Shown: piece by piece, positions 20,003-52,783 of the stretch
Layout of the letters: each line of letters starts with the position of its first letter
Position numbering within the stretch: the first letter of the stretch is position 1
IMG/VR virus record: IMGVR_UViG_3300009034_000002
Location: 109,109 to 173,108 of that record
Direction: 5' to 3' (one strand)
Source: a virus
Length of the DNA: 64,000 bases
Notes under the pieces: generated by a model
The model's database searches: none
The model's input: the letters and a program-made list of their open reading frames with translations, nothing else
What the model was told of the DNA's origin: nothing
Position numbers and translations under genes: made by a program

Positions 20003-20716
20003 CTATTTCTCTTCACCTTCAAAATAACCGTCAATGGCCGAACGACACTTTGAAAACTCTGGAGCCGCTGACGAACGCCAACCAAAGTGTTGGTAAACAA
20101 AGATGCCGTTCTTCCACTCGTTGGACAACTTCGACCAATTAACCCCTTTACCGTATAACATTTCGTGTATATCCGACTGATTCTTATTCATTAACTCATT
20201 ATGCGAAAAGTGTGACTGAGCTAACATATGTATACTGTTACGTTCCCAATCCTTCTGACGCCAAATGAAGTAGTTACAAACTTCTTCCTTTGGGATATTA
20301 AATACTCTACAATCAAACAGGGCTAATTGGGGAGGCAAAACCACACCATACCCATCAATGAAGAAATTTTTCGTAAATGTTACAGAAGCAATACTAGCTG
20401 CGATAGAAGTCATCTTTTGAATGTTATAATCAAACCAAGCTGAGGTATTTAACTTATCAAAATCCGAAATCAAGATCGAAATTTCATCGGATTGGACATA
20501 TGCACATTTTGAACCTTGGATTTCACTACACAACGCAATTGCGGTCTTTTTCATACAATCCGAAAAGATGTTATCAAACGGTTTTTCACATCTTCGTGTC
20601 AGGGTATGAAATGCTTTCCCATCCAGTCTCATAATAACAGGCGTTCTGCGACATAGTTTAATCCTGTAACGATTTTCGTAGTTCTCCTTCATTCTATCGC
20701 CTATCGACTGAGTCAT
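20003..20716 (-). CDS. thg1: tRNA(His) guanylyltransferase-like 3'-5' polymerase (Thg1/TLP)
   Basis: 237 residues from the ATG at 20716 (GGAGGA upstream). The reverse polymerase family adds nucleotides in the 3'-5' direction to tRNA 5' ends. RLDGKAFHTLTR, followed by KPFD, contains the first metal-binding Asp, and YVQSDEISIL contains the second acidic metal motif. Bacterial and viral members (TLPs) are known to repair 5'-truncated tRNAs rather than only adding G-1. The window also encodes RNA ligases and a CCA enzyme, supporting tRNA repair. Confidence 0.92.
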   Translation of the reverse strand: MTQSIGDRMKENYENRYRIKLCRRTPVIMRLDGKAFHTLTRRCEKPFDNIFSDCMKKTAIALCSEIQGSKCAYVQSDEISILISDFDKLNTSAWFDYNIQKMTSIAASIASVTFTKNFFIDGYGVVLPPQLALFDCRVFNIPKEEVCNYFIWRQKDWERNSIHMLAQSHFSHNELMNKNQSDIHEMLYGKGVNWSKLSNEWKNGIFVYQHFGWRSSAAPEFSKCRSAIDGYFEGEEK

Positions 20717-20739
20717 GAGGTCCTCCAAATTTATTTGAG

Positions 20740-21036
20740 CTATAACTTTTTTTCTTCAATCCATTCAACGGTTACCAAATTACCAAATAATTTATTAATG
20801 TTTTTCTCAATTGACTTTAGGTTTTTCTGCCATGGCCCAAAACTTTTAACCATAGTTACGGTCACTTCGGAACTAACATAAGTTGCATAGGCCAAATCCT
20901 TTAGAAACTTACCATTGGCAAACTCCCATGCTCGGTTTTCCTTTGTAAAATACATTCGTACTTTACAATGATGTGGTTCGTAGTATTCCCACTTTACCTC
21001 AAAGTGAATTGGTTTCTTCGACTTCGTCATCCTCAT
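20740..21036 (-). CDS. Hypothetical protein
   Basis: 98 residues from the ATG at 21036 (AAGGGGG upstream); a longer frame start is less likely. Basic, beta-alpha pattern, HFEVKWEYYEPHHCKVRMYF near the start. No family recognised. Confidence 0.65.
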   Translation of the reverse strand: MRMTKSKKPIHFEVKWEYYEPHHCKVRMYFTKENRAWEFANGKFLKDLAYATYVSSEVTVTMVKSFGPWQKNLKSIEKNINKLFGNLVTVEWIEEKKL

Positions 21037-21077
21037 CGCTACCCCCTTCATGCCAATTGTTTAAACCTAAAAAAGCT

Positions 21078-21299
21078 TCACTTATGTGTGTCTTCATCTT
21101 CATTATCAGTCGATTCTTCAATCAAATCTGATACCTCGTCACGTAAGCTAGTGATTGGCAGTTCAAGCTCATAACCTAGTAGCCACTCCAATGCAGCTTT
21201 CACGCCCTTGTTGTACGGACTGGCCACTTTGTCAGACTCGTCACATTCAAGCATCTTCAAAACAACATCATCTCGACTTCTCCTAAATTGTTCACACAT
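21078..21299 (-). CDS. Small duplicated protein, copy 2 (ALEW family)
   Basis: 73 residues, very similar to the product at 21337-21564: both start MCE-F-RSRD-VV and share YNKGV-AALEW-LGYE followed by an acidic tail. Its upstream 41 bases are identical to those of the other copy, so it arose by tandem duplication. A third, shorter relative is at 47306. Function unknown. Confidence 0.8.
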   Translation of the reverse strand: MCEQFRRSRDDVVLKMLECDESDKVASPYNKGVKAALEWLLGYELELPITSLRDEVSDLIEESTDNEDEDTHK

Positions 21300-21329
21300 T
21301 TACCTTTCCCTCCATTGCAGAAATTATTG
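21289..21329. repeat. 41-base direct repeat, copy A (second copy at 21554-21594)
   Basis: The 41 bases at 21289-21329 and 21554-21594 are identical. Each covers the first codons of a small gene, its ribosome binding site GGAGGGAAAGG, and the last codons (ISAMEGKVNV) of the ligase gene. In copy A the ligase tail is a non-functional remnant. Weaker identity continues some 10 bases further. This dates the small-gene duplication as recent. Confidence 0.9.
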
Positions 21330-21336
21330 TGTATAC

Positions 21337-21564
21337 TTACCTTAACCTCACGTCTTCATTTTCACTATCAGATGATTCTTCATCAAAATCCAAGTTTACC
21401 AAGTCGCGTGGGTCAATAATAGATAGTTCATCCTCATAACCTAAAATCCACTCCAAAGCCGCGTTCACTCCCTTGTTGTAAGGAACAAAAGATTTGGCAG
21501 ACTCTTCACATTCAAACATCTTTGCGACAACTTCATCTCGACTTCTCTTAAAATGTTCACACAT
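21337..21564 (-). CDS. Small duplicated protein, copy 1 (ALEW family)
   Basis: 75 residues, paralogue of the next gene downstream. Conserved core YNKGVNAALEWILGYE; C-terminal third rich in Asp/Glu/Ser. It overlaps the end of the ligase gene by 8 bases and its ribosome binding site lies within that gene's last codons. Confidence 0.8.
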   Translation of the reverse strand: MCEHFKRSRDEVVAKMFECEESAKSFVPYNKGVNAALEWILGYEDELSIIDPRDLVNLDFDEESSDSENEDVRLR

Positions 21565-22684
21565 TTACCTTTCCCTCCATTGCAGAAATTATTGAATATA
21601 CATACCGCATTTTATCCTTTGGACAAAACTGCGACATATACCTCATTACCTGTCGTTTGTCTTCCATTAACTTAACGCCAAACTCCTTATACTTTTGTAA
21701 AACTTCATTCCTTAACTTTACTTCAAATTTAACGTCGTTGATACACTTCCATACAAGATCCTGGCGAGCTTCAACTTCGCGGTCTGTAATTTCTTCCAAT
21801 AACAGCTCCTTAACAAATGTATAGGTAAGTTCTTCAACAGATACGTTTTCAAGCGCGTTATAACATGTTGTTAAAATGTCTTGCTTATTTAAACCTGGCT
21901 TAGCATGAACTGCCATCACACTTTCGGGTTTACATTTCCATTGAACCCAGCCCAACTCAGGATCTTTGACATACACCACAGAACCTTCGGAGCCTTCAAT
22001 GCCAAAATCTGTTGTTTTATTAGTATTTTCAAGTTCACCACGTATCCTCTTGTAAAAGTCTTCGAAGTTGTTCTCGGGTTTAATTTGATAATAAACTGTA
22101 GCAGTCGGAACTTCCGTTGTGAATGATTCTGGCAGCAGTATTTGTTCGGACTTCCTGTCAATTCCAAATATCAATGCAGTATCAAGCGGCGTGGGATAAA
22201 TTATTAAATGTTTATTTCTTATCCCATAAAGTTCACAAACAGCGGTACGTTCCATACTGGGTAAACGCTTAATAGCGGGATAACGTTCTAACATTTCACG
22301 CCACATCTTTACGAAGTCGTAAGATTCAAAACTGTGCATGACTGGCGTCATCCTAGTCTTATAAGTTACATATTCTTTCCTTCTGAAACGGTAAACGTAA
22401 CAAATAATAGCTGTGCCGTCATACTTTTGATAAGCAGGCGAAACTTCAAGAGTATGATGGAAGAAAAATTTGCCAAACCTATTATGAGGATAGTACATCT
22501 TTGGCGCACTCATTATAAACTGAGCTTCGCATTGCATTCCGTTTATATGTGTTAACCAAAGTGATCCATAGTATTTGCCAGACTCCGTGCACATATATCC
22601 GGAAAGGAGATGATCCGGATTAAAAACATCAACTACATCTTTAAATTCACGACGTGGCTTCGTAAGAAATTCAGTAAATTCCAA
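21557..22684 (-). CDS. ATP-dependent RNA/DNA ligase-like nucleotidyltransferase
   Basis: About 375 residues starting at a TTG (22682-22684) seven bases after AAGGAGGT. The open frame runs 51 bases further into the transketolase gene, but no better start is present. Covalent nucleotidyltransferase motifs: I KYDGT (Lys about 87), III near CELYGI, IV EGSVVYV, V WKCKPE. The roughly 100-residue C-terminal domain is helical and unassigned. The motif style is closer to phage RNA ligases than to NAD or ATP DNA ligases, but substrate is not proven. Next to a Thg1 gene two positions downstream. Confidence 0.78.
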   Translation of the reverse strand: MEFTEFLTKPRREFKDVVDVFNPDHLLSGYMCTESGKYYGSLWLTHINGMQCEAQFIMSAPKMYYPHNRFGKFFFHHTLEVSPAYQKYDGTAIICYVYRFRRKEYVTYKTRMTPVMHSFESYDFVKMWREMLERYPAIKRLPSMERTAVCELYGIRNKHLIIYPTPLDTALIFGIDRKSEQILLPESFTTEVPTATVYYQIKPENNFEDFYKRIRGELENTNKTTDFGIEGSEGSVVYVKDPELGWVQWKCKPESVMAVHAKPGLNKQDILTTCYNALENVSVEELTYTFVKELLLEEITDREVEARQDLVWKCINDVKFEVKLRNEVLQKYKEFGVKLMEDKRQVMRYMSQFCPKDKMRYVYSIISAMEGKVNV

Positions 22685-22688
22685 TTCG

Positions 22689-23630
22689 CTACCTCCTTGG
22701 TTTGTGCCGCATAAATGTTTCAATAGTAGCCACAATACTACGCGGTGTTAAATTATATTTCTTTAATAACGATTCTGGAGAACCCGAGCGAGTAAATATA
22801 TCAGGAATACCAATACGTAACATTGAAACAAGTTTGTGTTCCATTAAACATTCTGACACAGCATCACCTAAACCGCCAATTACTGAATGATCCTCGACGG
22901 TAACTACCGAGCCAGTACTTCCAGCACAATGCAACAATAATTCAGTATCCAATGGTTTAACTGTTGACATAGCAACAATACTACTGGAAACACCAGACAT
23001 TTGAAGATAGTTTGCAACTTGTAAACATGTATGAGTTAAATAACCTGTTGTCACAATTGTGACATCTTTACCGTCACGCAAACAGCTACCCTTCCCAATT
23101 TCAAAATGGTTACGCTTTTCAACAATCTCTGGCATATCAATTCTACAACCTCTAATATACACCGGGCCTGGATGTGCTACAACAGTTTCAACAACCTGTT
23201 CCATTTCGGTGCTATCTATTGGAGCAATCACGGTCATATTTGGTATTACTCGCATTAATGCAAGATCTTCCAACGCGTGGTGTGATACACCGTCGGGTCC
23301 AACGGTTATTCCGCCATGGCTACCAAAGATTTTTACATTCAAGTTGTCCAACGCAATTGTTTGTCTTATTTGTTCCCATCCCCTACAAACAAAGATTGCA
23401 AAGGTAGCCAGGAAAACAATCTTACCAGTTAGTGCAAGTCCCGCAGCTACGGACATCATATTTTGTTCTTGTACCCCAACGTTAAAAAACCGATCCGGGA
23501 AAGTCTTCGCAAAGTAATGGGTCTTTGTTGATGATGAAAGGTCAGCATCGAGCACGACAACGTCTTTATTTAATGTACCTACTTCTTGTAGTTTCTTTCC
23601 GAAAGCATCTCGCGGATTACGCTTTTCCAT
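22689..23630 (-). CDS. tktB: Transketolase, C-terminal subunit
   Basis: 313 residues covering the pyrimidine-binding and C-terminal domains of a split transketolase. FNVGVQEQNMMSVAAGLA holds the catalytic Glu that activates thiamine diphosphate; HHALEDLALMR and VEDHSVIGGLGDAV are also typical. It overlaps the N-terminal subunit gene by 14 bases, so the two are translated together. Similar split enzymes occur in archaea and some bacteria. With GmhA it could supply and use sedoheptulose 7-phosphate; a 1-deoxyxylulose-phosphate-synthase-like or other ThDP reaction cannot be excluded. Confidence 0.9.
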   Translation of the reverse strand: MEKRNPRDAFGKKLQEVGTLNKDVVVLDADLSSSTKTHYFAKTFPDRFFNVGVQEQNMMSVAAGLALTGKIVFLATFAIFVCRGWEQIRQTIALDNLNVKIFGSHGGITVGPDGVSHHALEDLALMRVIPNMTVIAPIDSTEMEQVVETVVAHPGPVYIRGCRIDMPEIVEKRNHFEIGKGSCLRDGKDVTIVTTGYLTHTCLQVANYLQMSGVSSSIVAMSTVKPLDTELLLHCAGSTGSVVTVEDHSVIGGLGDAVSECLMEHKLVSMLRIGIPDIFTRSGSPESLLKKYNLTPRSIVATIETFMRHKPRR

Positions 23631-24471: not shown

Positions 24472-24483
24472 AGTCTTGTCTCC

Positions 24484-24810: not shown

Positions 24811-24858
24811 TGTACATCTCCTTTAAAATTGAATCAATTTATTTTTATGTAACCATAG

Positions 24859-25956: not shown

Positions 25957-25963
25957 AAATCCT

Positions 25964-29736: not shown

Positions 29737-30684
29737 TTAAATTTTCTCTAATTCTTCCTTTAACATGGCAGCGCCGGGCTCCAAAAATTCGACTTTGCCA
29801 GCTTCCTGACACCAAGTTGCATATCGTTCTAGTAATGTTCCATGAGTAACTTGAGCTTCTTCCACAAGCATTTCCTCACTTTCGGTATCACAAATTACAT
29901 GAAAAGCCCTCTTTTTTAATGTGCCAATATCTAAATCAAACTCAAACGAGCCAAGAAGTCTAATAATCTTCCCATCTAATTTCTGTGGCAAGTCTTTAAT
30001 GTTCCTAACTGTCAATAATTCCCTAGAACGAACGGGATAAAAAGTTGGCTTCCAATCATGAATCATTACGTAACCGCCCACAAATCCTTCCTCCGAAAAG
30101 TTACGCCGTTCTAGCGAACCAGGATAAACCAATTTCCCTTTCACAAAGTGCCTATGTAAATGTCCACCAGCAATATATTTATATCGATCCTGATCAATCT
30201 TATGAATACTGTCAACATGCTTAAACTCCTCAACACCCGAAGTTGCACAGTGTATAAGTAAGATGTCAGCATTTCCTGGCGGAATTGGTTTACCATATGG
30301 AACGCATATAATTGACACCGGACCCTTACTGGTATTAACTTTTATACGTTGAGACTCAGTTACTACAGTAATATTTTCACCTGCCAACACTTCCACCGGC
30401 GACTTATCAAATGGACTAGCATCATCATGGTTCCCAGGTATTACAACAATTGGAATGTTGAGCTGTTTCAACTTGCCGGCAACAATTTGTGCAAGATTCG
30501 GTGGCTTACGTTTGTCGTAGAGATCGCCAGCAATTAACATAAGGTCTGGATGACATTGACGAATTTCCTTCACCGTCTGGATGAAAGTCCGGTAGAAATC
30601 GGCCTCTCTTGCATTCATTTGTTGGGTATACTTACCATAAGCCCGGAAACCGAGATGGGCATCAGCAATGTGTGCAATTATCAT
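29737..30684 (-). CDS. sbcD: SbcD/Mre11/gp47-like nuclease
   Basis: Metallophosphoesterase exonuclease of 315 residues acting with SbcC on double-strand breaks. Metal-binding motifs IADAHLG, AGDLYDKR, PGNHDD and GGHLHRH are in the expected order. GGAGG lies upstream. Overlaps the upstream gene by 4 bases. Needed for recombination-dependent replication in many large phages. Confidence 0.95.
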   Translation of the reverse strand: MIIAHIADAHLGFRAYGKYTQQMNAREADFYRTFIQTVKEIRQCHPDLMLIAGDLYDKRKPPNLAQIVAGKLKQLNIPIVVIPGNHDDASPFDKSPVEVLAGENITVVTESQRIKVNTSKGPVSIICVPYGKPIPPGNADILLIHCATSGVEEFKHVDSIHKIDQDRYKYIAGGHLHRHFVKGKLVYPGSLERRNFSEEGFVGGYVMIHDWKPTFYPVRSRELLTVRNIKDLPQKLDGKIIRLLGSFEFDLDIGTLKKRAFHVICDTESEEMLVEEAQVTHGTLLERYATWCQEAGKVEFLEPGAAMLKEELEKI

Positions 30685-31254: not shown

Positions 31255-32283
31255 TTATTTTGCAAAGTTGTCATATTTCCTCAAAACGGAATCATCCATC
31301 AGATGATTTAAAACGAGATCCGAAACACTTTTTATACGCTTGTTTGACCACCTTAGATAAGTTCCCAGTTTAAGTACAAACTCCTTTCCAAGAGCTTCGT
31401 GATGCACGTAGGTACTTCTATCAAGTTTATGAACCCGCACAAACGGTTTTGCAATGTCATGGAGCAATAAAGCCCACGCTACCTCAATATCCAACGAATC
31501 GCATACTGAAGAATAAGCATCAAGCGCAGTTAAAGTATGTTCCCATAAATCACGGTTGTGCCATTTGTTATTCTGATCGTAATCTACTTGAACTGAGAGT
31601 TCAGGTAAAATATAATTGAGTACTTCAGTTCTATCCAAGAAACTTAATCCTCTTGAAGGTTTATAACTCAGTAACAATTTGTCAATTTCTCCAACCCAAC
31701 GTTCCTTACTAACACCCAATATCTTATAATTCACTTTTTTTGCACAATCTTCCGTCTTAGCATCAACATGAAAGCCAAGTTGTGAAGCAAAACGTGCAGC
31801 TCTTAACAGTCTCAATGGATCCTCGCGAAAACGAGACGTGGGATTACCTACAGCACGAATTAATTGCTTTTCAATATCTCGACTACCACCAAAGGGGTCT
31901 ATATACCTATTACCTCTTTTAGCAATTGCGTTCATAGTGAAATCTCTTCTACTAAGGTCAGCCGTGATATTATTAACAAATTCAACTTGAGGTTTACGAG
32001 ATCCAGTAATATACTTCTCTTTTCGGAACGTAGTTATTTCCACCATCCTTCCATCTACCTTCACTCCCAAAGTTCCAAATTTCTTGCCAACTAAATATGG
32101 CCTTCTTTGAGCCTTTCTAATACGGTTTTCAATTTCATCCGGAGGCAGAGGTGTAGTGAAATCGTAATCCTTCGGATCAACACCCATCAGCTCATCCCTA
32201 ACGGAACCACCTACGAGATAGACAGGACAAACCAAGCCTTCAACGTATTTAACAATCTCTTTATGTGTCATCCTCTTTGCCAC
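31255..32283 (-). CDS. cca: CCA-adding enzyme (tRNA nucleotidyltransferase, class II)
   Basis: Adds or repairs the 3' CCA of tRNAs without a template. Nucleotidyltransferase head with LVGGSVRDELMG (23-34), catalytic DYDF (39-42), RRDFTMNAIA and the neck motif RLLRAARFASQLGF. The C-terminal part has an HD domain with LLLHDIAKP. At 342 residues it is shorter than the Escherichia coli protein. GTG start with AAGGAG, overlapping the RlaP-like gene by one base. Both window tRNAs already encode CCA, so repair of damaged tRNAs is the likely use. Confidence 0.95.
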   Translation of the reverse strand: MAKRMTHKEIVKYVEGLVCPVYLVGGSVRDELMGVDPKDYDFTTPLPPDEIENRIRKAQRRPYLVGKKFGTLGVKVDGRMVEITTFRKEKYITGSRKPQVEFVNNITADLSRRDFTMNAIAKRGNRYIDPFGGSRDIEKQLIRAVGNPTSRFREDPLRLLRAARFASQLGFHVDAKTEDCAKKVNYKILGVSKERWVGEIDKLLLSYKPSRGLSFLDRTEVLNYILPELSVQVDYDQNNKWHNRDLWEHTLTALDAYSSVCDSLDIEVAWALLLHDIAKPFVRVHKLDRSTYVHHEALGKEFVLKLGTYLRWSNKRIKSVSDLVLNHLMDDSVLRKYDNFAK

Positions 32284-33086
32284 TATGCCCGCTCCTTCCA
32301 GAAGTCCTTAATGATACTTGTGCACAACTCGTTTGCCTTATTAAAATTTGGCTTTGCAGGTAACTTGCTCCTTACAAATGCTTCTTCGGCTAACTTGAAT
32401 AAATGTTGTGCTTCATCTTGCACCTTTTCAAGTGGCCATTCCCCTCGTTTAATAGCAATTAACTGTTGTCTATCGTGTCTCAGCACATTGAGTTCACCTG
32501 TAATCAATAGTTCTATTCCCATCTTGAGTAACCTAATCAAGTGGCCAGCATTCTTACAGTCATAGCCAAACTTCTCAACCAACTCTTTCCTCTTTTGTCC
32601 CATGTAGCCTTCAAATCTGAAATGTGTCATCCGTCGTAACTGTCCGTAAGCATAGCCAGTAAAAGACTTATAACATTGTTTAGATATGAACATATCACGG
32701 TTTTCGATAAGTCGGTTTCCCAAATCAGTTTTTAGGATGTAATGGTTTGGACTAAGCCATAATAAACCAAGCACATTAGGATTTCCCTTAAGCAACAACC
32801 GTATATATTTCTTAATGTCGTATACAACCAAATCGATACTTCCTTCGAAACAGTCATAACTCTCAAACTTCTTTAATCCAAGATAGTAATCTTTTGGAGA
32901 AACAGAAACGCCTATAATGTCAATATCATCAATATGACTTGGCACGTAGGTTCCATGTGCTTTACTACCACGGTATCCTCTAAGAATACAATCTTTATGG
33001 TATGGACAGAAGCCGAGTTGAACTGCACGAGAACAAAAGCTAGAATTTCTACTGTCACATAGACTACAATCTTTCCATCTGTCCAT
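32283..33086 (-). CDS. RlaP-like predicted nucleotidyltransferase (COG3541)
   Basis: 267 residues. Polymerase-beta-fold nucleotidyltransferase motif GSKAHGT (40-46) and HIDDIDIIGV (51-60) match the COG3541/RlaP family, predicted from gene neighbourhoods to act with RNA ligases in RNA end repair. The N-terminal 35 residues carry five cysteines (CSLC, C18, C27, C33), a possible zinc cluster not usual for the family. It overlaps the CCA-enzyme gene start by one base, so the two are likely made together. Confidence 0.8.
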   Translation of the reverse strand: MDRWKDCSLCDSRNSSFCSRAVQLGFCPYHKDCILRGYRGSKAHGTYVPSHIDDIDIIGVSVSPKDYYLGLKKFESYDCFEGSIDLVVYDIKKYIRLLLKGNPNVLGLLWLSPNHYILKTDLGNRLIENRDMFISKQCYKSFTGYAYGQLRRMTHFRFEGYMGQKRKELVEKFGYDCKNAGHLIRLLKMGIELLITGELNVLRHDRQQLIAIKRGEWPLEKVQDEAQHLFKLAEEAFVRSKLPAKPNFNKANELCTSIIKDFWKERA

Positions 33087-33174: not shown

Positions 33175-34224
33175 TCACCTCATTTGAACAAATTTGTGTA
33201 TCTGAGTACCAAGGATGACGTCCTTACCTTTCCAAAAGTTAGACATCAAAATATCCGCAACGTTACTCAATCGTTTAAGGTATTCATTAACATCAAACGG
33301 GACCGGAGACACTGGAGACAAAACAAAGGCTGCGGTTGACATTTTTTCTACTACATACTTTGCAAACTCTAGATCTTCAATGCCGTCCAGAAGTAACTTG
33401 AACTGAACGAAAGGCCGAGGATGTTGTGGATCAAAGAAATGCTGTCTTTGGTCTAGCCAGAAACGTTTGTAAATCTTCATGGGAACGTCCAAATTGTTTT
33501 TAACCTTTGAACTCGGTCCTTTTATATCTACGGAAATCAAGCCATTCACCAAGTCAAACACCTCAGGGTTCCAAATTGTGCCATTGGTTTGTAGCATTAT
33601 TTGGCAACCAAATCGACGTAACATATTTATCAAATACTTAGCGGCTGAAGGTTGATGTAGCACCTCACCGCCAGTAAGGAAAATCACACTATTTCTTAAC
33701 GGACTATATTCATCATGTGCGTTAACACAATGAACTTCATCAAGTAACCGACGAATCGACCAATTCTGACCTTTTCCCCAACTATACTTTGTGTCGCAAT
33801 ATGGACACTGGAGGTTACACCCCGAAAATCTAATAAATGTAGCAGGGGTTCCCACCTCATGTCCTTCGCCACAAACGGACCGGAACACATCTTCAGCAAG
33901 CCTTACTGGAACCGTTCTTTCAAACCAAGCTTGTGGCAAATCATTCAAATCTTCTTCATACAAACCTAAATACTCTATCTTATGAGAACGGTAACTGTTT
34001 ACCGCGTCAACAAAATATTTAAAGTATCCAGGAATGTCAAATCCGCCAAAATATTCAATAAAAAGTTGTGGGTGTTTAATATAACAATCCGGACTGATTA
34101 TACCATCAGGTTGTGGATAGCAATTCTCAAAATCCAAACCCAAATCGTGGAAAAAGTAAATAATCTTGTCAATTTGATTAGCAAACATATCTTGGAATTT
34201 TATTTCGATCTTTTTTCCAGTCAT
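33175..34224 (-). CDS. queE: 7-carboxy-7-deazaguanine synthase (QueE-like) with an N-terminal extra domain
   Basis: Radical SAM enzyme converting 6-carboxytetrahydropterin to 7-carboxy-7-deazaguanine. CNLQCPYCDTKYSW (C136, C140, C143), the LTGGEV SAM-binding motif and QTNGT are QueE hallmarks. Residues 1-110 are extra: IISPDCYI, FIEYFGG (E57) and RSHKIEYL resemble a PD-(D/E)XK nuclease-like fold (PD at 45-46), unusual for QueE, which normally has about 220 residues. GGGAG upstream. It acts with FolE2, QueD and QueC. Confidence 0.88.
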   Translation of the reverse strand: MTGKKIEIKFQDMFANQIDKIIYFFHDLGLDFENCYPQPDGIISPDCYIKHPQLFIEYFGGFDIPGYFKYFVDAVNSYRSHKIEYLGLYEEDLNDLPQAWFERTVPVRLAEDVFRSVCGEGHEVGTPATFIRFSGCNLQCPYCDTKYSWGKGQNWSIRRLLDEVHCVNAHDEYSPLRNSVIFLTGGEVLHQPSAAKYLINMLRRFGCQIMLQTNGTIWNPEVFDLVNGLISVDIKGPSSKVKNNLDVPMKIYKRFWLDQRQHFFDPQHPRPFVQFKLLLDGIEDLEFAKYVVEKMSTAAFVLSPVSPVPFDVNEYLKRLSNVADILMSNFWKGKDVILGTQIHKFVQMR

Positions 34225-35236: not shown

Positions 35237-35818
35237 TTAAAGTAAATCAAATTTGTTAATATACCTATACCATTTATTCCGAGGTGTTATTGGATACAAT
35301 AACGACGTTCGTCTATCCCGTTTGCCAACTGGAAGCAAATACGTAGGCACAATAACATTCAGAGTCAAACTTTTATCTTGTAAAATAAAAATGGTAATGT
35401 TACTGTCATACCGCGCGACATACGGACAAAATTTGTAACCTCTAGGATCTAATTGTACCTTTGAAGCCAAAAGTCTTACAATTTTATCATTAACACGAAT
35501 GTAGCTACCACGCGAGACTCTCGTAACCACAAATCCTTTCCTTTTTAGAAGTTGTGTAAATTCCTCCTTTGCACGTGAAAACCAACACTTGCCCCACGAG
35601 AAAGTCTTACACCTATTTACTACTCTTTCGCGTTTCTGACTTAAACCTAACTTATCAATAACTTGTCGAGCGTACTCCCTTGTAAAACCAAAGTATCTAC
35701 CAATATCTGCCTTAGAACACAGTGGATCGTGATACATCCGCATAAACTGTTGCATAGCGCCGGGACCATAAAGTTCCTCAAATTTATCCTTAAAAGTTTG
35801 GCTCCTTCGCCTTCGCAT
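35237..35818 (-). CDS. HTH-containing protein, possible endonuclease relative
   Basis: 193 residues. A basic N-terminus is followed by a helix-turn-helix (SKADIGRYFGFTREYARQVI, about 35-54). The C-terminal 90 residues have FCPYVARYDSNITIFILQD and NVIVPTYLLP, a pattern seen in intron-type PD-(D/E)XK nucleases, but I see no clear catalytic Lys. Could be a regulator or a degenerate homing-type nuclease. GAAGGAGG lies inside the queC gene, which it overlaps by 29 bases. Confidence 0.65.
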   Translation of the reverse strand: MRRRRSQTFKDKFEELYGPGAMQQFMRMYHDPLCSKADIGRYFGFTREYARQVIDKLGLSQKRERVVNRCKTFSWGKCWFSRAKEEFTQLLKRKGFVVTRVSRGSYIRVNDKIVRLLASKVQLDPRGYKFCPYVARYDSNITIFILQDKSLTLNVIVPTYLLPVGKRDRRTSLLYPITPRNKWYRYINKFDLL

Positions 35819-36875
35819 TGTACGCCTCCTTCAGTTCGTTCAAACTAATTACCCCCTTTTTATACGCTTCCCACTTTAGCCAGAAGAAGTAGGTGTAACA
35901 CACATGATCTCGCAACTCCTCCGATCCAAATTCAAACATGTCATCCTTAAGGAAATGTGCTGAATCAAACTTTCTCAAACCAGCTCGCAGTCCATCAATA
36001 CAAAAGTTCATAAATTCCTTAAACCTTTTCTCATCAAAAGAGTTCAAGCCTTCGTATTTACTATCCCTATCAAACAAGCTAACCAACTGTGCAAATGGAA
36101 TACGAAGAAGGTTAGGTCTATTCTTGAAAACCCAGATAAGTCCTGGCATGTACCGCATTTGAACACAATATTCAGGGAAAAGTGGACTTTCCCGTGGATC
36201 TTTATCATAAGTCGTTTTATCTTCCCCAAGCGCAGACAACATTGCAACGTTGCGCTCAACACATAAATAACATTGGCCACAATGTAACTTATATGGAATA
36301 CTTCTACCCTTTATTGTACCTCTATCATAGTAAAAACAGCTGTTCGTTTCATATATCAAATCGCCAACTTGGTCATGACACAGTTTAACACGATCACACT
36401 TTATGGTTGCATTTCCAATGTCATCCAACGTCCAAAGTTTGCACTGAGGATCTTTCCCATGAATGTAGTTCTGTAACTCTTCAGTATTGCTGTCTTTTGT
36501 TGACACCGACCACCAATTTACCCAAGTTTCTGGCCCACCACCTTTATACTCGCCCATTCCAATGTCAGCACCCGGGAACCGTTCCAATGTCCAATCAATC
36601 ATATACTGATTCCTTTTAGGTAGCATATCTCGCGTCATCATGTATTTCCGATCTGAAAAAATAAGCGGTTTCGGAATATCAAAACCTTCCTTAGTGCACT
36701 TATTCCATAAGTTCATAACGGTTCGAACTTCGCGTACACAATAGCCTTCACCTTTCCACCTAACGTATATTGGCTGTGGTTTAATTAATCCAAGAGTCTG
36801 ATTGCAACGAGCAAGCCAAGTCAACACGGCCAGTGAATCCAATCCGCCTGAAAATAGCACAATAGCTTTTTTCAA
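35790..36875 (-). CDS. queC: QueC-like 7-cyano-7-deazaguanine synthase, divergent
   Basis: 361-residue PP-loop ATPase. FSGGLDS (8-14) is the pyrophosphate loop; C180, C199, C202 and C205 (HCGQCYLCVERN) match the QueC zinc site. QueC converts 7-carboxy-7-deazaguanine to preQ0 with ATP and ammonia. Host QueC is about 230 residues; here an insertion in the middle and about 110 extra C-terminal helical residues are unexplained. TTG start behind GGGGGAAG. Two genes upstream of an HTH protein and in the same run as queE. Confidence 0.82.
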   Translation of the reverse strand: MKKAIVLFSGGLDSLAVLTWLARCNQTLGLIKPQPIYVRWKGEGYCVREVRTVMNLWNKCTKEGFDIPKPLIFSDRKYMMTRDMLPKRNQYMIDWTLERFPGADIGMGEYKGGGPETWVNWWSVSTKDSNTEELQNYIHGKDPQCKLWTLDDIGNATIKCDRVKLCHDQVGDLIYETNSCFYYDRGTIKGRSIPYKLHCGQCYLCVERNVAMLSALGEDKTTYDKDPRESPLFPEYCVQMRYMPGLIWVFKNRPNLLRIPFAQLVSLFDRDSKYEGLNSFDEKRFKEFMNFCIDGLRAGLRKFDSAHFLKDDMFEFGSEELRDHVCYTYFFWLKWEAYKKGVISLNELKEAYNAKAKEPNF

Positions 36876-40726: not shown

Positions 40727-41902
40727 CTATATAACCCTTTTAAGCCTTATTGTGTTAAAGTTATACTTCCTTCCCTTCTTGGCACAATTAATCCACATTC
40801 CAAGTGACCTTTGAACAATATCCGCGGTAAAGTCAAACTTGCCATCAAACATAGACGAGCCAACACCATAAGCATAAACCGGCAAATCTAACCTTTCAAA
40901 TTTGGAAATCTTCTCCGGCGTAAATCCGCCACTAACTACAATCTTAATATCACTAAAGAATTGACGTCCTACGCTCCCTACCTTAAAGTCCAAAGACCTG
41001 TTTCGTAATGCTAAAAAAACATTTTTTACCAATTGTGGGTTGACTCCAGTTATTTCATGTAAATTATGCGGCACAAATGTACCTTCATCATCTATAGAAT
41101 CCAACACCGACTTATCCACCATCGTTCCAGATGTATCTAGTCTTACACCAAACAGTTTGTATCGTGGATCTCTTGTTTCCTGATATTTTAACCACATTGC
41201 ATTTGCAACATCCAAAGATGTCTTTACGGAATCGTTGTCAAAATCAACAAGCACAACTCTCTTTACCATTGGATCAATAAATTGACAAAACTTAAGTGTA
41301 GCCGTTACTGTATCTCCGCCATAGGCAGCAATTAATCCATGAGGCATCGTTCCAATGCCTTTTTCTCCCCACCACCAACCTTGGGCGTCAGTCGACACGC
41401 CTCCGCATAATGGCAGACCAGCAGCTTCTCTGCCAACAGAATAAGAGTACCCATCTTTAGGCTGTACAGTATAACTATCAAATCTGGCAGGAAAGAAAAG
41501 AATTGGTTTACCCTTCGCAGCTTTCACGCACCTATAAACATTAGTTGCAACCTTAGTACCTCTCGCTAAAGTGCCCAAGTATACAGTCTCAAGATGTGCA
41601 AACAGTGAATAATCGCCCTCAATTAACATTACCGTTTCCCAAGCGTTTATAATATCGCCATCACGTAAAGACCTAATCGTAAGCTTTTCAAAACTTGTGT
41701 TTAAAATTTGTTTCATTATATGAATTGACTCATCAATGCCACACAAGCATGCGTTATTATTCTTCTGGAAAATCTGAATCCTGACAATGGGACGATGATG
41801 ATCCCACTCCAAAATTCGTTTGGTATTGTTGAAGTATTCGTCGGTGTAGCTTCCAAACTTTATCACAGGTTCAACTTTTACACGATTACAATTTAATTTC
41901 AT
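40727..41902 (-). CDS. pncB: Nicotinate phosphoribosyltransferase family protein
   Basis: 391 residues from the ATG at 41902. Joins nicotinic acid (or nicotinamide) to PRPP in NAD salvage. ETVMLIEGDYSLFAHLETV then LGTLARGTKVATN, RFDSYT, SVGREAAGLPLCGGVST and GGDTVTATLKFC are characteristic of this family, as is the VVSGGFTPEKISKF phosphate site. Overlaps the upstream gene by 17 bases. No NMN adenylyltransferase was found in the window, so it would feed host NAD synthesis, which could offset NAD-depleting defences (inference). Confidence 0.9.
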   Translation of the reverse strand: MKLNCNRVKVEPVIKFGSYTDEYFNNTKRILEWDHHRPIVRIQIFQKNNNACLCGIDESIHIMKQILNTSFEKLTIRSLRDGDIINAWETVMLIEGDYSLFAHLETVYLGTLARGTKVATNVYRCVKAAKGKPILFFPARFDSYTVQPKDGYSYSVGREAAGLPLCGGVSTDAQGWWWGEKGIGTMPHGLIAAYGGDTVTATLKFCQFIDPMVKRVVLVDFDNDSVKTSLDVANAMWLKYQETRDPRYKLFGVRLDTSGTMVDKSVLDSIDDEGTFVPHNLHEITGVNPQLVKNVFLALRNRSLDFKVGSVGRQFFSDIKIVVSGGFTPEKISKFERLDLPVYAYGVGSSMFDGKFDFTADIVQRSLGMWINCAKKGRKYNFNTIRLKRVI

Positions 41903-42128
41903 ATTCCTTACCCTTTTTATCTGGTTTGTAGGTTGTCTCACATTGAGGACTAGACAAACTCATATCGTTGTTTATACAAAGCTCCTTCATAGCCTGACAA
42001 ATTATCCAACGAGGATACGTCAAATCCGTAGCAAACATCATAAACATTTGTCTACGTTCACTATCAGACTTTGCAACTGAGAAACAATCCTTAACATACT
42101 TAAGCTGTACTTTCTCCTTGTCCGTCAT
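41886..42128 (-). CDS. Hypothetical protein
   Basis: 80 residues, charged, two cysteines. GGGGGG precedes the ATG. Its last codons contain the ribosome binding site of the NAPRTase gene. Confidence 0.65.
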   Translation of the reverse strand: MTDKEKVQLKYVKDCFSVAKSDSERRQMFMMFATDLTYPRWIICQAMKELCINNDMSLSSPQCETTYKPDKKGKEYEIKL

Positions 42129-46047: not shown

Positions 46048-46048
46048 G

Positions 46049-46285: not shown

Positions 46286-46301
46286 GTCTTGCACACCTCC
46301 T

Positions 46302-46739
46302 TTACTTGTATACAACTATAAACCTGTCATCCCAAATTTTCAACACTGGCTTAACCGTGGTTTCCCAATTCAAACGTCCATATCCACAACCAGGTCGAGG
46401 AATATAAATCTCCTTAATATCTGGAGATTCATTAACATATTGTAACAGTTCCCATGCACTCCTCTCAATTAACTGAATATCTGCAGGGCCCATAAAATTT
46501 CGAGGTTTAACAGGGAAAGTAAAGATTGAATACTTTCCGTACTGACCAAGAAACCATACATGGTTACCTCCCATGGTTATCTTAAATCCAATGTCATGTG
46601 CAATCTCCGGGAACCTTTCCTTAGCCTCAAGTGCACATCCTCTCCCCATGACGCATTGATTATAGCGAGTAACATATCCATTTGTGGTTATAGCAATATA
46701 AGGACCAAGACTCCAAATATTTCGTTTAAGTTCAAGCAT
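46302..46739 (-). CDS. Macro-domain (ADP-ribose binding/processing) protein
   Basis: 145 residues from the ATG at 46739 (GAGGGGTGA upstream; an in-frame TTG lies further out). YIAITTNGYVTRYN, then NQCVMGRGCALEAKERFP matches the ADP-ribose loop of macro domains, and IYIPRPGCGYGRLNW the second phosphate loop. Relatives remove ADP-ribose from proteins or DNA, or the phosphate from ADP-ribose-1''-phosphate. The latter arises when tRNA splice-type repair removes a 2'-phosphate, which links it to the RNA repair genes; countering ADP-ribosylating toxins is another option. Confidence 0.82.
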   Translation of the reverse strand: MLELKRNIWSLGPYIAITTNGYVTRYNQCVMGRGCALEAKERFPEIAHDIGFKITMGGNHVWFLGQYGKYSIFTFPVKPRNFMGPADIQLIERSAWELLQYVNESPDIKEIYIPRPGCGYGRLNWETTVKPVLKIWDDRFIVVYK

Positions 46740-46773
46740 AAGCTTTATATCACCCCTCAATTTTCATACAATC

Positions 46774-47271: not shown

Positions 47272-47305
47272 ATCTTAATCTCCATTTATAAACACGTCAA
47301 AGATG

Positions 47306-47461: not shown

Positions 47462-47509
47462 TACAACATCCTCCTTCAATTGAATGAATATAAACCTACA
47501 ATAAAATGA

Positions 47510-47749: not shown

Positions 47750-47768
47750 GTTACCCTCCAATTTTTTT

Positions 47769-48008: not shown

Positions 48009-48022
48009 CTCCTTCACCTCGA

Positions 48023-48955
48023 TCAAAATGCATAATTTACTATGCTGCCTTTAGAAACCTTCTTTATATTCAAACGTTTCTTACTTCCAAAAATCACCCA
48101 ATCATCAAAGCCAACAAAAGGTTTGTAAATATAGCCAACATAAGTGTAGTACTGTTTTAATACCTTAACAGTATCACCCAACGTGCGACTTCCCGTGCCT
48201 AAACCGGTTATAACATATGGAACGGTAAAATGACAAAAGTAAACAAGCTCCCTGAACTTAGCTAATTCATTCCCTTCATGCCAATCGTCAGGTTGACAAA
48301 AGAACACATCGTTATATAGTAACGCTTCCAGAACGTCATAACGTTTATGAAAAACTTTATAACGTTTCTCCGGCATAACCGTTGGCATACCAAGATAGAC
48401 AAGTTGTATAACATCTGGATTCAAAACATTTTGTAAAAACATATTTGCATCGCCAAATCGGAAGTCAACCTGGTTAGGCTTAATCCTTGAAGTCATCCTC
48501 TCTAAATACTTCTGATTCTTCTTCACAAGTTCATTTACCGGAACTTGTAAGTCATGAACATAAATATGTTCCAACCATGCCATAATCTGTGCAGCACGAG
48601 AAAAACTTTGTGGCTGTTTCTTAAATATATAGTCAGCAATGGCCTTTACAGTCTTCATTCTATCGCAGCATATCACATTGAGACCTTTTCTAGCACATCC
48701 ATAAGGTAAGTCCAACCCACACGCAAAAGGTATAACAACTTGTTCAACATCAGGTGGGATATTTTCAACAATTTCATCTAAGATTAACCGTTGGGAACCC
48801 AAGATGCGAGTATCAAATATAATATCACGATCGAACTCCGGCTTATTCTTTACAGTTAATTCAAGCCTTTCATAGTTATCCGACTCTAATGATCTCACAA
48901 ATTGTTTTAATCTGTCAATCCAAAGTTGATTCGCTTTATTTCTTGGTTTCTTCAT
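48023..48955 (-). CDS. SAM-methyltransferase-like protein coupled to DpdA
   Basis: 310 residues resembling a D12-class DNA methyltransferase. GSQRLILDEI opens the fold and VVIPFACGLDLPYG occupies the SAM-binding FxGxG position, followed by an acidic CCDR end of strand 2. The catalytic DPPY position reads VYLGMPTV, so N6-adenine methylation is unlikely. Overlaps the DpdA gene by 4 bases (ATGA), implying joint function. It may modify the inserted 7-deazaguanine or serve as a DNA-binding partner. Family membership is by overall pattern only. Confidence 0.6.
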   Translation of the reverse strand: MKKPRNKANQLWIDRLKQFVRSLESDNYERLELTVKNKPEFDRDIIFDTRILGSQRLILDEIVENIPPDVEQVVIPFACGLDLPYGCARKGLNVICCDRMKTVKAIADYIFKKQPQSFSRAAQIMAWLEHIYVHDLQVPVNELVKKNQKYLERMTSRIKPNQVDFRFGDANMFLQNVLNPDVIQLVYLGMPTVMPEKRYKVFHKRYDVLEALLYNDVFFCQPDDWHEGNELAKFRELVYFCHFTVPYVITGLGTGSRTLGDTVKVLKQYYTYVGYIYKPFVGFDDWVIFGSKKRLNIKKVSKGSIVNYAF

Positions 48956-49734
48956 CGTACATACACCTCACTAGCAAAGGCACGTAACTTCATACAATTG
49001 TTCCAAATCTGGAGTAACACTTTCGGACCAACCTTGATCGAAAAGTCGAGATCAAATGGACTTGGTTTTTCAAAAGTGCCAAACTGACTAATTTCCTTAC
49101 CGGCTAACGCAAGTTTGGTTGGATCTCCAGTATCAAGACGTAAGTACAAACCAGCGTGTCGATATCCCATTAATTCCAATCCACCATCTGAAGGCATACC
49201 TAGTAAATGAATAACCTTGTTTATTGTTAATTTACTTAACAGGTAACTTAAAAACCTCAAACGATTTATGCCAGGATGAGTTGAAAACAACGCGGGCAAT
49301 AAACCTCTATAGCCAAACCCGATCGAGTAAATCTCAGGGTGTTGATTAAACCAATTAAAACTTTGAACTAGAGATTCAAGTTCCAAACCTTGAACAACGC
49401 CCATGAACTTTATATCTGGACCAAAGGCATCACGAAATAATTTTATTGAACGATCGGCTGTGCGAATTGTCTTCTGTGCATCCTTCCAAATGTCAGGCAA
49501 TACTACTTCATTAGGCTGTGTCAACTCAATCTTTTCGCACATCTTTTCAGCTTCCATTGCAACGCCGCACTCAACCGCGCCGTTATCCAAAACTTTCCAC
49601 TTTGAATTCTGTGAGTAGAACTTGGTATAAGCATTACTTGGTTCTACTAAGTGTGCCAGTAACAAATGAAAATCTTGCAAACTGTCAAAGTCGTCCAAAT
49701 ATGCAGTTGGCACACAAAAACTAAACTCTATCAT
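48952..49734 (-). CDS. dpdA: DpdA-like 7-deazaguanine DNA transglycosylase
   Basis: 260 residues of the tRNA-guanine transglycosylase superfamily, phage DpdA type: exchanges guanine in DNA for preQ0 or a derivative. Asp50 in WKVLDNGAVE is the likely first catalytic Asp, VVLPDIW and FMGVVQG mark the barrel's base-binding strands, and LRLDTGDP (Asp201) the second. The four-cysteine zinc site of tRNA TGT is missing, as in phage DpdAs. ACGGAGGTG upstream. With FolE2, QueD, QueE and QueC it completes a DNA-modification pathway. Confidence 0.85.
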   Translation of the reverse strand: MIEFSFCVPTAYLDDFDSLQDFHLLLAHLVEPSNAYTKFYSQNSKWKVLDNGAVECGVAMEAEKMCEKIELTQPNEVVLPDIWKDAQKTIRTADRSIKLFRDAFGPDIKFMGVVQGLELESLVQSFNWFNQHPEIYSIGFGYRGLLPALFSTHPGINRLRFLSYLLSKLTINKVIHLLGMPSDGGLELMGYRHAGLYLRLDTGDPTKLALAGKEISQFGTFEKPSPFDLDFSIKVGPKVLLQIWNNCMKLRAFASEVYVR

Positions 49735-50313: not shown

Positions 50314-50373
50314 CGGCCTCGATTTTTCTGTGGACTATACTAGAATTTTAAACATACGGGTATAATGAAGACA

Positions 50374-50877: not shown

Positions 50878-51181
50878 GTTTCCCTCCTAACCTTTCTTTG
50901 ACCCTCTTGTCGAAGTTGTTGATTCGATCATCAACCTCTTTCAATTGATCTTGAAGATATAATATTTCTTCTTCTTTACTTTCGATTTCACTTGTGGTCT
51001 TAGCTACTTTTTTCAAGTCTTCGGTAATAGCCAATTTGTGTTCCAAGCGTTGTTTCTCATGTTTCTGGTTAAGCTTGCCGATTAAATACCAAAACACAAT
51101 AAGAAGTCCCACAAGAAAAGGTATGAACTTGTAACCTTTCTTAATGGTACTTTTAATTATGTTCCACAAACTTTTCAACAT
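50822..51181 (-). CDS. Membrane coiled-coil protein in the lysis cassette
   Basis: 119 residues: basic N-terminus, a membrane helix (FIPFLVGLLIVFWYLI) and a long coiled coil. This i-spanin-like layout, with a lipoprotein gene overlapping its end out of frame, copies Rz/Rz1 organisation. AGGAGG upstream. Could alternatively be a holin partner or antiholin. Confidence 0.65.
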   Translation of the reverse strand: MLKSLWNIIKSTIKKGYKFIPFLVGLLIVFWYLIGKLNQKHEKQRLEHKLAITEDLKKVAKTTSEIESKEEEILYLQDQLKEVDDRINNFDKRVKERLGGKHDSKDAKESIDSLNDSWD

Positions 51182-51212
51182 AACACCTCCTGACGTTATT
51201 CCTGAACTGCGG

Positions 51213-51512
51213 TTACACCTTTATTCGTCCGCCACCTAACTGTTTTATCTTTTTTGCAACGTGCACGCCACTACTCGTTAACCAAGTACGTACAGTTGCT
51301 GTTTTAAAGACTTCACGCATTCCGTAAATAACGCCATAATTAGCCACATTAAAGGTTGTCCAATTACCTCCCGAGATGTGACTATGTGTAACCAACCACG
51401 TTGAAACCCAAAGGCCACTTATGATGCCCCAAGTTTTCAAACTGATTACATTTTCAACAATCTTGTATAAAGCAGCTTTCCAAAATGATTCTTCCACTTT
51501 CTTTTCTGCCAT
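51213..51512 (-). CDS. Holin candidate
   Basis: 99 residues with one clear membrane segment (WGIISGLWVSTWLVTHS) and a second weak one, charged N-terminus and basic C-terminus. Size and place between endolysin and spanin genes fit a holin; sequence alone does not prove it. GGGGGT upstream. Confidence 0.55.
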   Translation of the reverse strand: MAEKKVEESFWKAALYKIVENVISLKTWGIISGLWVSTWLVTHSHISGGNWTTFNVANYGVIYGMREVFKTATVRTWLTSSGVHVAKKIKQLGGGRIKV

Positions 51513-51607
51513 TGTTACCCCCTTTACTTCGTTATATCATCTTAATAGTTAGTCCAATTACTAAGGAAAATTACAGTTAAAAACACATCTCTTATGTTAA
51601 GAAATAT

Positions 51608-52123
51608 TTAAACTCTATTCAACCAGCCTTTTAAATACTTTGTAAGCTCTGGCCTACGTTCAGATAGCTTGATATATCTGACAACTTCCTCACAACGATA
51701 TATCTTAAGTAAGGCTTTAGACCAACCATCCTCAATAAGCAAATTCAAATTGTACAATGTTTTAGGGCCAATATCTCCATCCAGCATCAAATACGCTGGT
51801 TCCCCAAGTACCATAGTAAGTTTATTTACTGTACGTTGTAAGGTAACGGATGCTGTCTTTACGCCTACGTTCACAGCATAATCCAAAATTTCTGTTGCTA
51901 AATCCTGATCCTCAATGTAAACACCTTTTATTGGACACCAGTAATCGCAGTCATAAATTTCAGTTGCTTCATCCTTGGTTAAACTTTTAATGTCAACAGC
52001 TGGATGTGCACGTTTAGAGATTCCATATTTTGTTTCTCCACCCGGATCGTCGGGATCATTTACATATCCGCCTTCATGTTCAAAGATTACAGGCATTGCT
52101 TTCTCTAGTCTGGCCATAAACAT
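51608..52123 (-). CDS. Endolysin (GH108 N-acetylmuramidase with peptidoglycan-binding domain)
   Basis: 171 residues. FEHEGGYVNDPDDPGGETK (Glu17 in HEGGY) and KYGIS are the GH108 signature; the enzyme cuts peptidoglycan glycan chains. DGDIGPKT in the second half matches the small peptidoglycan-binding domain usually paired with it. No signal peptide, so a holin is needed. AGGAGG upstream. A 94-base AT-rich gap without clear signals separates it from the next lysis gene. Confidence 0.93.
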   Translation of the reverse strand: MFMARLEKAMPVIFEHEGGYVNDPDDPGGETKYGISKRAHPAVDIKSLTKDEATEIYDCDYWCPIKGVYIEDQDLATEILDYAVNVGVKTASVTLQRTVNKLTMVLGEPAYLMLDGDIGPKTLYNLNLLIEDGWSKALLKIYRCEEVVRYIKLSERRPELTKYLKGWLNRV

Positions 52124-52783
52124 TTACCTCCTGAAGTCTTTGTGTTTCAACTTAGTTACTATACGTTTACCCGACCGAGCTTTTAATTCAACCAATGGCT
52201 TCAACACAAGTCCCTCAGCAAGAAAGTCGCCAAAGCTCGATTTAAGTCCACGTTTAACAGTCATTATAGCATCATCAATAGTTCCTATGCTAAGGATTTG
52301 GACAATATCAATTCCAAGCTTCGTTGCAATATCTACCATATTTCCCCTTTCAAGCCACCAATCATTAATTAATATGTCAAATAGTATGAAACTCTGTCCA
52401 TCGCGTATGTAATTGCCCCCTTTCTGAATTCCGGCGCCATAACCTTCGCCATACAAAGTCACGTCCTGCATTCCAAACATTTTCTTAAACTTTTCAACAG
52501 GGAACATTTTATTAAGTACCTCTAGCAATAGTGGGGGCATATTCGCATTATCGGTTTTTCCTCTAAACGAAACTTTATCCGCATCGTTAATTTCAATCCC
52601 GTTGTTTGCAACGGTTCTGTAAATTACCCTGATGTTCATTCCGTCAATTTTCTCGGTCCCAACCCAGAAGTTATCCTTCAAGTATTGAAATTCAGGCCGA
52701 GTCCAATCACCTTCGATGAAGTAATTTGGTTTCTGTGACATATCGCGTTTGAAGATACTTTGAATTTTAGGATACTCCTTCAC
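52124..52783 (-). CDS. RNA ligase (Rnl2/PF09414-like)
   Basis: 219 residues, GTG start behind GGGGGT. Nucleotidyltransferase motifs I EKIDG (Lys45), III LYGEGYG, IV EGLVLKP and V KLKHKDF are in the order of T4 Rnl2-type RNA ligases, which reseal nicked RNA. No extra C-terminal domain. Second ligase-like gene in the window and a partner candidate for Thg1, RlaP and the CCA enzyme in tRNA repair. Directly upstream of the endolysin. Confidence 0.87.
   Translation of the reverse strand: MKEYPKIQSIFKRDMSQKPNYFIEGDWTRPEFQYLKDNFWVGTEKIDGMNIRVIYRTVANNGIEINDADKVSFRGKTDNANMPPLLLEVLNKMFPVEKFKKMFGMQDVTLYGEGYGAGIQKGGNYIRDGQSFILFDILINDWWLERGNMVDIATKLGIDIVQILSIGTIDDAIMTVKRGLKSSFGDFLAEGLVLKPLVELKARSGKRIVTKLKHKDFRR

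Follow-up and report, generated by a model that had tools for sequence, protein, structure and literature searches.

In phage T4, tRNA repair by Pnkp together with the RNA ligase Rnl1 constitutes the answer to PrrC, and cleavage of tRNAs is increasingly encountered in defence against phages. For jumbo phages a broader repertoire has been listed, which encompasses Rnl1 and Rnl2 ligases, RlaP, the CCA-adding enzyme, Thg1 and Macro proteins; in the accessible part of this survey, RlaP mirrors the ligases, end-healing enzymes are generally congruent with ATP-grasp ligases, and Thg1 is called sporadic (Iyer et al. 2021, PMC7824862). Here, these families are followed up in a viral DNA stretch of 64,000 nucleotides (positions 109,109 to 173,108 of the IMG/VR record IMGVR_UViG_3300009034_000002; hereafter the window), which forms the right part of this 173-kb record and originates from a jumbo phage. 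It is fairly probable that this phage holds a kinase-free member of the known phage RNA-repair repertoire, which would suit breaks with 5'-phosphates as well as lost CCA tails. As far as the survey is accessible, the same enzyme families are present in the phage, which differs, however, in combining two ATP-grasp ligases with no kinase found, in a ligase (ligase A) that lies beyond the Pfam Rnl1 model, and in RlaP and CCA genes whose stop and start codons share a base. An Rnl1-type ligase is likewise shared with the T4 pathway, but no kinase match was found, and RlaP, a CCA enzyme, Thg1 and a second ligase (ligase B) are added. Since the enzyme list as such is already published for jumbo phages, the novelty lies in the odd ligase, the probably coupled gene pair and a sharper prediction. 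An initial annotation of the window had assembled six open reading frames (ORFs) into one tRNA repair toolkit, and all six were recovered on the minus strand. This strand holds nearly all longer ORFs of the phage, and the shared direction is therefore no evidence of an operon.

The RlaP nucleotidyltransferase (32283-33086, 267 amino acids (aa)) and the CCA-adding enzyme (31255-32283, 342 aa) are clear members of the families to which they had been assigned and carry the respective active-site motifs. RlaP matches PF10127 at E=5.3e-22, with 79 bits against a cut-off of 23, and displays the GS and DxD motifs of nucleotidyltransferases as GSKAHG and DDIDI. The CCA enzyme is of the class II type, matches PF01743 (PolyA_pol, 1.4e-30), PF12627 (PolyA_pol_RNAbd, 1e-9) and HD (2e-5), and features the motifs GGSVRD, DYD, RRDFT and EDPLR along with the class II head, neck and template motif. 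Its match to TIGR02692 (2.6e-74) stays below the cut-off, as do all NCBIfam equivalog matches, and addition of the complete CCA, as opposed to A or CC only, is predicted. In E. coli, the HD domain of the CCA enzyme cleans 3' ends; the phage HD domain keeps H249 and H275-D276 and might, by analogy, act likewise. The overlap between both genes was borne out and amounts to one base, which is common to the TAG stop codon of RlaP and the GTG start codon of the CCA gene, with AAGGAG situated just upstream of this start. Because stop and start share a base, the two genes are probably translationally coupled. No mention of such an overlap was found in the accessible part of PMC7824862. Besides, RlaP bears an extra Cys/His-rich N-terminal stretch of ~33 aa, possibly zinc-binding, with a weak C5HCH match (E=0.046).

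A recurrent proximity of RlaP and CCA genes was observed among phages that encode Thg1. Of 99 Thg1 loci detected in IMG/VR, 80 were retained, and the 36 of these whose records measure 100 kb or more make up this set; for linkage counts, the near-duplicates G016 and G036 (recognised by eye) were dropped, and distances were measured from one hidden Markov model (HMM) match to the other. RlaP and CCA genes lie on the same strand within 5 kb in 4 of the 11 phages that have both (0.57 expected, P=0.0017), namely in the phage studied here, G028, G033 and G034, of which G033 and G034 are similar and hence not fully independent. In total, the two genes are at most 1 kb apart in five other phages (G028, G033, G034, L104 and L109). 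The gap measures 0.86 to 0.95 kb in G028, G033 and G034 and contains one ORF; in G033 this ORF runs into the genes on either side, in G034 into the CCA gene, and in G028 it resembles a GIY-YIG endonuclease (named by eye). In G034, RlaP, the gap ORF and the CCA gene share a region of ~8 kb with an RNA ligase, an AAA_33 kinase that carries an HD domain, and an ORF that looks HAD-like by eye; other ORFs are interspersed. Among 12 records picked by their CCA enzyme, RlaP is also present in four, two of which (L104 and L109) have the CCA gene first and RlaP ~0.9 to 1 kb away, and four of the 12, two of them duplicates, have an Rnl1 ligase no more than 6 kb from the CCA gene. A pattern-based IMG/VR scan with RlaP found one other phage. 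As a separate observation, the gap ORF of G033 (G033:104963-105913) and G034 (G034:22908-23861) encodes a protein of ~316 aa without a significant Pfam family; its motifs hinted at a Thg1-like polymerase, an assignment that was rejected because the hhalign comparison (P=0.3) was no better than the controls.

Ligase A (21557-22735, 392 aa from a TTG start) overlaps an upstream transketolase-like ORF by 47 nt and escapes ordinary searches: no significant match was obtained in Pfam (best E 0.075), PHROGs (0.088), NCBIfam (none) or PDB sequences (0.018), and its best subthreshold library matches are all unrelated proteins. Moreover, it has no match in INPHARED phages at 1e-3 or in the 35 other Thg1 phages, and a pattern-based IMG/VR scan, which finds close relatives, returned solely the phage itself. 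Its ligase nature is indicated by profile-profile comparison and motifs. Against a profile of 15 phage Rnl1 proteins drawn from PF09511 matches, two of them near-duplicates, hhalign yielded P=4.9e-5 over 225 columns (residues 100-359), whereas ten other window proteins and ten shuffles all gave P of at least 0.037; among 149 ORFs of at least 150 aa in the phage genome, ligase A ranked first, with the runner-up at 0.0069. Two alignments, one with 14 and one with eight Rnl1 relatives, show no variation at K104, D106, G107, E168, E250, G251, K267 and K269, and the motifs KxDG, III, EGxVV and KxK occur in order, together with an Rnl1 C-terminal region. Ligase A thus appears to be a very divergent ligase of the T4 Rnl1 type. 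Since PF09511 matches neither ligase A nor any other part of the 241-kb record described below, the protein is termed Rnl1-like and not a PF09511 member. A Foldseek search with its structure model gave T4 Rnl1 (5tt6) as best PDB match (E 9e-4, template modelling score ~0.2), which is not independent because the alignment supplied to the model was itself Rnl1. Behind ligase A (21090-21606), the end of its gene plus a small acidic ORF was noticed to be repeated in tandem, as two copies of ~255 bp with 79% identity.

Ligase B (52124-52783, 219 aa) consists of the nucleotidyltransferase domain only and resembles a minimal Rnl2 ligase, with matches to PF09414 (1.1e-15) and to the RNA ligase family PHROG 548 (2e-22) and with motifs I, III, IV and V present as KIDG, FDI, EGLV and TKLKH. 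A C-terminal Rnl2 domain is lacking and the TIGR02307 match (2.7e-7) reaches 30 bits against a cut-off of 197; ligase B is therefore called Rnl2-like and not assigned to TIGR02307. The two ligase-type nucleotidyltransferases named in the initial annotation thus appear to be of RNA type by sequence. DNA specificity, which would have spoken against a repair role in RNA, is unlikely, since both look RNA-type and the genome encodes separate DNA-ligase-like proteins, one with a DNA_ligase_A_M match and a LigA-like HHH/BRCT protein. The second role of T4 Rnl1 is tail-fibre attachment, and ligase A might similarly be bifunctional like T4 gp63, with ligase B serving lysis, structure or DNA metabolism. 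Ligase B is indeed located directly upstream of a lysozyme-like ORF (51608-52123, named by eye), and ligase A is undetectable with ordinary profiles; given that the catalytic motifs are kept in both ligases and that the phage has DNA-ligase-like proteins of its own, such other ends are very unlikely, and RNA sealing is the preferred function.

The question of end healing could be addressed beyond the window, because the 173-kb record matches part of the 241,415-bp jumbo-phage record IMGVR_UViG_3300009034_000001 without a difference in the stretches compared, so that gene absences were judged on more sequence. This longer record encodes the same short LigA-like stretch at both ends, which suggests that it closes on itself; an exact end overlap was looked for and not found. 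A polynucleotide kinase-phosphatase had been noted as missing from the window, and this holds for the whole record, in which AAA_33 has 0 matches. PNK3P, RtcB, KptA and 2H families were absent from the 114 ORFs scanned in batches against Pfam and from the ORFs scanned separately, a few of which were also in the batches; this covered a subset of the ORFs, namely longer ones, including only a part of those in the left arm that look structural or glycosyltransferase-like. Hence, the kinase-phosphatase that characterises healing and sealing of the T4 type was not found in these scans (0 AAA_33 in the record, no PNK3P in the 114 ORFs). A phosphatase activity might reside in the HD domain of the CCA enzyme or in a calcineurin-type, SbcD-like protein (29737-30684). 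A HAD-like ORF (G001:179855-180220) was rejected for this role, as Pfam gave no match and an in-frame stop immediately precedes the DxD motif; beside it lies a Rit1-like ORF (G001:179114-179701; PF17184, 25.5 bits, cut-off 27).

PrrC and colicins leave 5'-OH ends, and repair of such cuts would therefore need a host kinase. ATP-grasp ligases require 5'-phosphate and 3'-OH ends, as stated in the accessible part of PMC7824862; because no 5'-kinase was found, the set rather fits cuts by metal-dependent RNases. According to the accessible parts of the respective reports, AriB of the PARIS system produces 3'-OH ends, as established by test, with 5'-phosphates expected on the other side of the cut (PMC12409363); CCA tails are the target of Cas12a3, which removes them (PMC12851939). 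From sequence, we infer all activities and substrates, as well as the membership of Thg1 in one pathway, as follows. Ligase A would reseal single-strand breaks with 5'-phosphate and 3'-OH ends, for example in anticodon loops, and ligase B the corresponding nicks in duplex RNA. RlaP, co-made with the CCA enzyme from coupled genes, would add back nucleotides missing from a 3' end that has been broken or trimmed, upon which the CCA enzyme would rebuild the CCA, its HD domain perhaps also cleaning 3' ends, and Thg1 would refill missing 5' nucleotides against the acceptor strand. Unaided, such a set would act only on 5'-phosphate cuts, as made by metal-dependent RNases (PARIS AriB, the PIN/VapC type, or tail cutters like Cas12a3); for other cuts, a host kinase might alternatively be borrowed. 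A more specific proposal, in which RlaP and the CCA enzyme form a coupled 3'-end rebuilding unit against tRNA-tail-cutting defences such as Cas12a3 and the kinase-free set is tailored to metal-dependent RNases, which leave ends ready for sealing, is rather unlikely, because the specialisation is deduced from an absence. Among the papers listed from the open-licence literature, no title or abstract opening was found to describe a CCA enzyme by which a phage counters tail cutting, and the CCA enzyme coupled to RlaP constitutes a concrete, testable candidate.

The Thg1-like protein (TLP; 20003-20728, 241 aa) is a clear family member, as proposed initially, with matches to PF04446 (1.4e-27) and PHROG 4717 (1.8e-82) and with conserved active-site motifs, RLDG at residue 34 and SDE at residue 80, which include the metal-binding carboxylates. 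Its start is likely the ATG at codon 5, since the alignments begin there. The nearest solved relative is the TLP of Bacillus thuringiensis (BtTLP; 4kgk, 1.7e-54), whose catalytic motifs are also present in the phage protein; the latter differs in being phage-borne, and its activity is predicted. In the accessible part of PMC3701042, TLPs are described as favouring repair of tRNAs with damaged 5' ends and as accepting many tRNAs, and 3'-5' addition to 5'-truncated tRNA is reported for BtTLP. ARAGORN detected three tRNAs in the phage, Ala-TGC, Pro-TGG and Glu-TTC, and no tRNA-His; a role of Thg1 on a tRNA-His of the phage itself was therefore rejected. Across 80 Thg1 loci, a tRNA-His occurs within up to 10 kb on each side in seven. 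Among the neighbours of Thg1 loci, NADAR-, PTH2-, TROVE- and macro-like families recur (named by eye). In the 484-kb phage W06 (LR756508.1, 85208-90194), TROVE-like pieces, a CCA enzyme, a nucleotidyltransferase-like ORF and Thg1 stand in an apparent operon, with the CCA enzyme two genes from Thg1 (TROVE and nucleotidyltransferase named by eye).

Co-occurrence of the repair families in other phages, which the initial annotation had put forward as a check, was assessed in the 36 Thg1 phages with E up to 1e-3 as presence. RlaP was present in 24, RNA_ligase (PF09414) in 30, the CCA enzyme in 16, PF09511 in 10 and AAA_33 in 29; above the curated cut-offs, RlaP remained in 22/36 and RNA_ligase in 25/36. 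For comparison, 20 control isolates no shorter than 100 kb were hand-picked from 60 spread rows of 1,255 RecA-matching records; they contained RlaP in eight, RNA_ligase in seven and Thg1 in two cases, and the 14 of them searched for the remaining families had CCA in four, PF09511 in six and AAA_33 in nine. Records with QueD were considered as a control set, yet only two of 34 reach 100 kb, one being the phage itself, and IMG/VR pattern scans with the helicase, macro and transketolase proteins likewise returned only this phage. For Fisher tests, G016, G036, the phage itself and the two Thg1-positive controls were dropped, which left 33 Thg1 phages. PF09414 ligases are enriched among them (27/33 vs 5/18 controls, P=2e-4), as is the presence of either ligase family, PF09414 or PF09511 (27/33 vs 4/12, P=0.004).

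Physical clustering was evident for a part of the repertoire. RlaP lies within 5 kb of a ligase in 7 of 21 phages (1.65 expected, P=7e-4); in the phage studied here it is ~10 and ~19 kb from the two ligases. Kinase linkage was counted from AAA_33 rows above the cut-off only (26/36 records, 29 at 1e-3), AAA_33 being a broad family in which a match is no proof of a polynucleotide kinase. On this basis, RlaP is linked to a kinase in 5/17 phages (1.06 expected, P=0.003) and a ligase to a kinase in 9/22 (1.9 expected, P=4e-5). The linkage test thus reveals what travels together, RlaP with CCA enzyme, ligase and kinase, and that Thg1 does not.

Other observations weigh against a single kinase-free repair set. 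The repair genes are scattered across 33 kb in the phage itself, and for divergent phage proteins the failure of an HMM to detect a family says little about its absence. Ligase A goes undetected, up to E 10, in an hmmsearch with our own Rnl1 profile, and its structure model is poor, with a predicted local distance difference test (pLDDT) score of 43.6 with eight relatives in the alignment (34 for the single-sequence fold). The one RlaP-picked relative, L096, is without a CCA gene in the 14 kb examined. Linkage of CCA genes is not significant with ligases (2/11, P=0.18) or kinases (2/10, P=0.10). The controls form a small, hand-picked set from other lineages, and relative to them the enrichment of RlaP in Thg1 phages is borderline (22/33 vs 7/18, P=0.053) and that of the CCA enzyme (13/33 vs 2/12, P=0.14), the Rnl1 family PF09511 (9/33 vs 4/12, P=0.78) and AAA_33 (27/33 vs 7/12, P=0.11) is not significant. 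The expected co-occurrence therefore stood for PF09414 ligases, was borderline for RlaP, and failed for CCA enzymes, Rnl1-family ligases and AAA_33 kinases. Finally, a distance of at most 5 kb separates Thg1 from RlaP in 1/23, from CCA in 1/14, from a ligase in 3/28 and from a kinase in 2/24 phages, all at chance level, and a place of Thg1 in a physical repair cluster was rejected on these grounds.

These linkage values would fit a separation into two independent entities, an RNA-repair group of the RlaP-CCA pair and the ligases on the one hand, and Thg1 acting alone in tRNA maturation or quality control on the other, for instance on 5' ends of host tRNAs, its presence owing to large phages collecting tRNA-related genes. 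In line with this, large phages frequently encode Thg1, in diverse forms (99 IMG/VR stretches, 127 of 50,697 INPHARED records), and when the ORFs located up to 6 kb from Thg1 were clustered by BLAST, even the most widespread neighbour family was confined to at most 7 of 69 non-redundant loci. The separation is nevertheless somewhat unlikely: PF09414 ligases are enriched in Thg1 phages, the closest solved relative repairs 5'-truncated tRNAs (PMC3701042, as far as accessible), no tRNA-His was found in the phage, and a few Thg1 loci adjoin TROVE- and PTH2-like sequences (by eye), W06 even having Thg1 in a run with a CCA enzyme. The toolkit first proposed is half supported: the RlaP-CCA pair recurs, and RlaP, ligase and kinase genes are clustered more than expected by chance, but Thg1 is near them only at chance level, and the macro protein is removed.

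This macro protein (46302-46760, 152 aa) had been regarded as a possible processor of ADP-ribose-1''-phosphate (Appr-1''-phosphate), a role that was rejected in view of its DarG matches in NCBIfam and PDB; KptA was not among the families found in the ORFs scanned. It has no Pfam match, and matches NCBIfam DarG (NF048014, 7.3e-11) with 41.9 bits against a cut-off of 250, DarG being the longer protein, and the PDB sequences of the DarG macrodomain (5m3i, 1.3e-7) followed by TARG1 (3e-3). In the sequence alignment, K85 of its FPVK motif pairs with the FPTK lysine of DarG and would correspond to DarG K80, which is essential for DNA de-ADP-ribosylation (PMC5179494, accessible part). Besides its best matches, this aligned lysine constitutes the likeness to DarG and TARG1; at only 152 aa, the phage protein differs in lacking the rest of full-length DarG. 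It more likely reverses nucleic-acid ADP-ribosylation than processes Appr-1''-phosphate, and was therefore taken out of the RNA repair set.

It is likely that the macro protein instead belongs to a counter-defence group around ADP-ribose and nicotinamide adenine dinucleotide (NAD), outside RNA repair, along with a nicotinate phosphoribosyltransferase (40727-41941, 2.4e-83) and an isochorismatase-family protein (G001:238756-239397, 6e-44), which is possibly a nicotinamidase. A phage-encoded antitoxin against DarT is already known in AdfB, which likely acts by direct interaction (PMC11481870, accessible part). This assignment has to be reconciled with a DarG match under the curated cut-off and with an isochorismatase-family protein for which biuret amidohydrolase (1e-18) is a better match than nicotinamidase (4e-12), neither reaching its cut-off; since ADP-ribosylation occurs on RNA as well, the macro protein might also act there. 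The nicotinate phosphoribosyltransferase and the isochorismatase-family protein may in addition point to NAD salvage, and a YAcAr/SLOG protein was spotted by eye in the same phage (G001:188628-189011).

Further observations concern other parts of the phage genome. A glutamyl/glutaminyl-tRNA-synthetase-like ORF (L005:17957-19279, equal to G000:77957-79279; PF00749, 2e-20) accompanies the tRNA-Glu gene. Possible ADP-heptose synthesis is indicated by phosphoheptose isomerase-, cytidylyltransferase- (PF01467) and sugar-kinase-like ORFs (window 2868-3635; L002:9241-9726 and 17665-18618), partly named by eye. FolE2 (placed by eye), a radical SAM protein resembling QueE, a QueC-like protein just below the cut-off, and QueD-like and transglycosylase-like ORFs (both by eye) probably constitute a pathway for 7-deazaguanine DNA modification (window 3649-4452, 33175-34224, 35790-36875, 55918-56328 and 48952-49734). 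In the right arm, at ~200-219 kb of G001, small Cys-rich ORFs of ~105 aa that resemble one another form an extended family, arranged partly in tandem.

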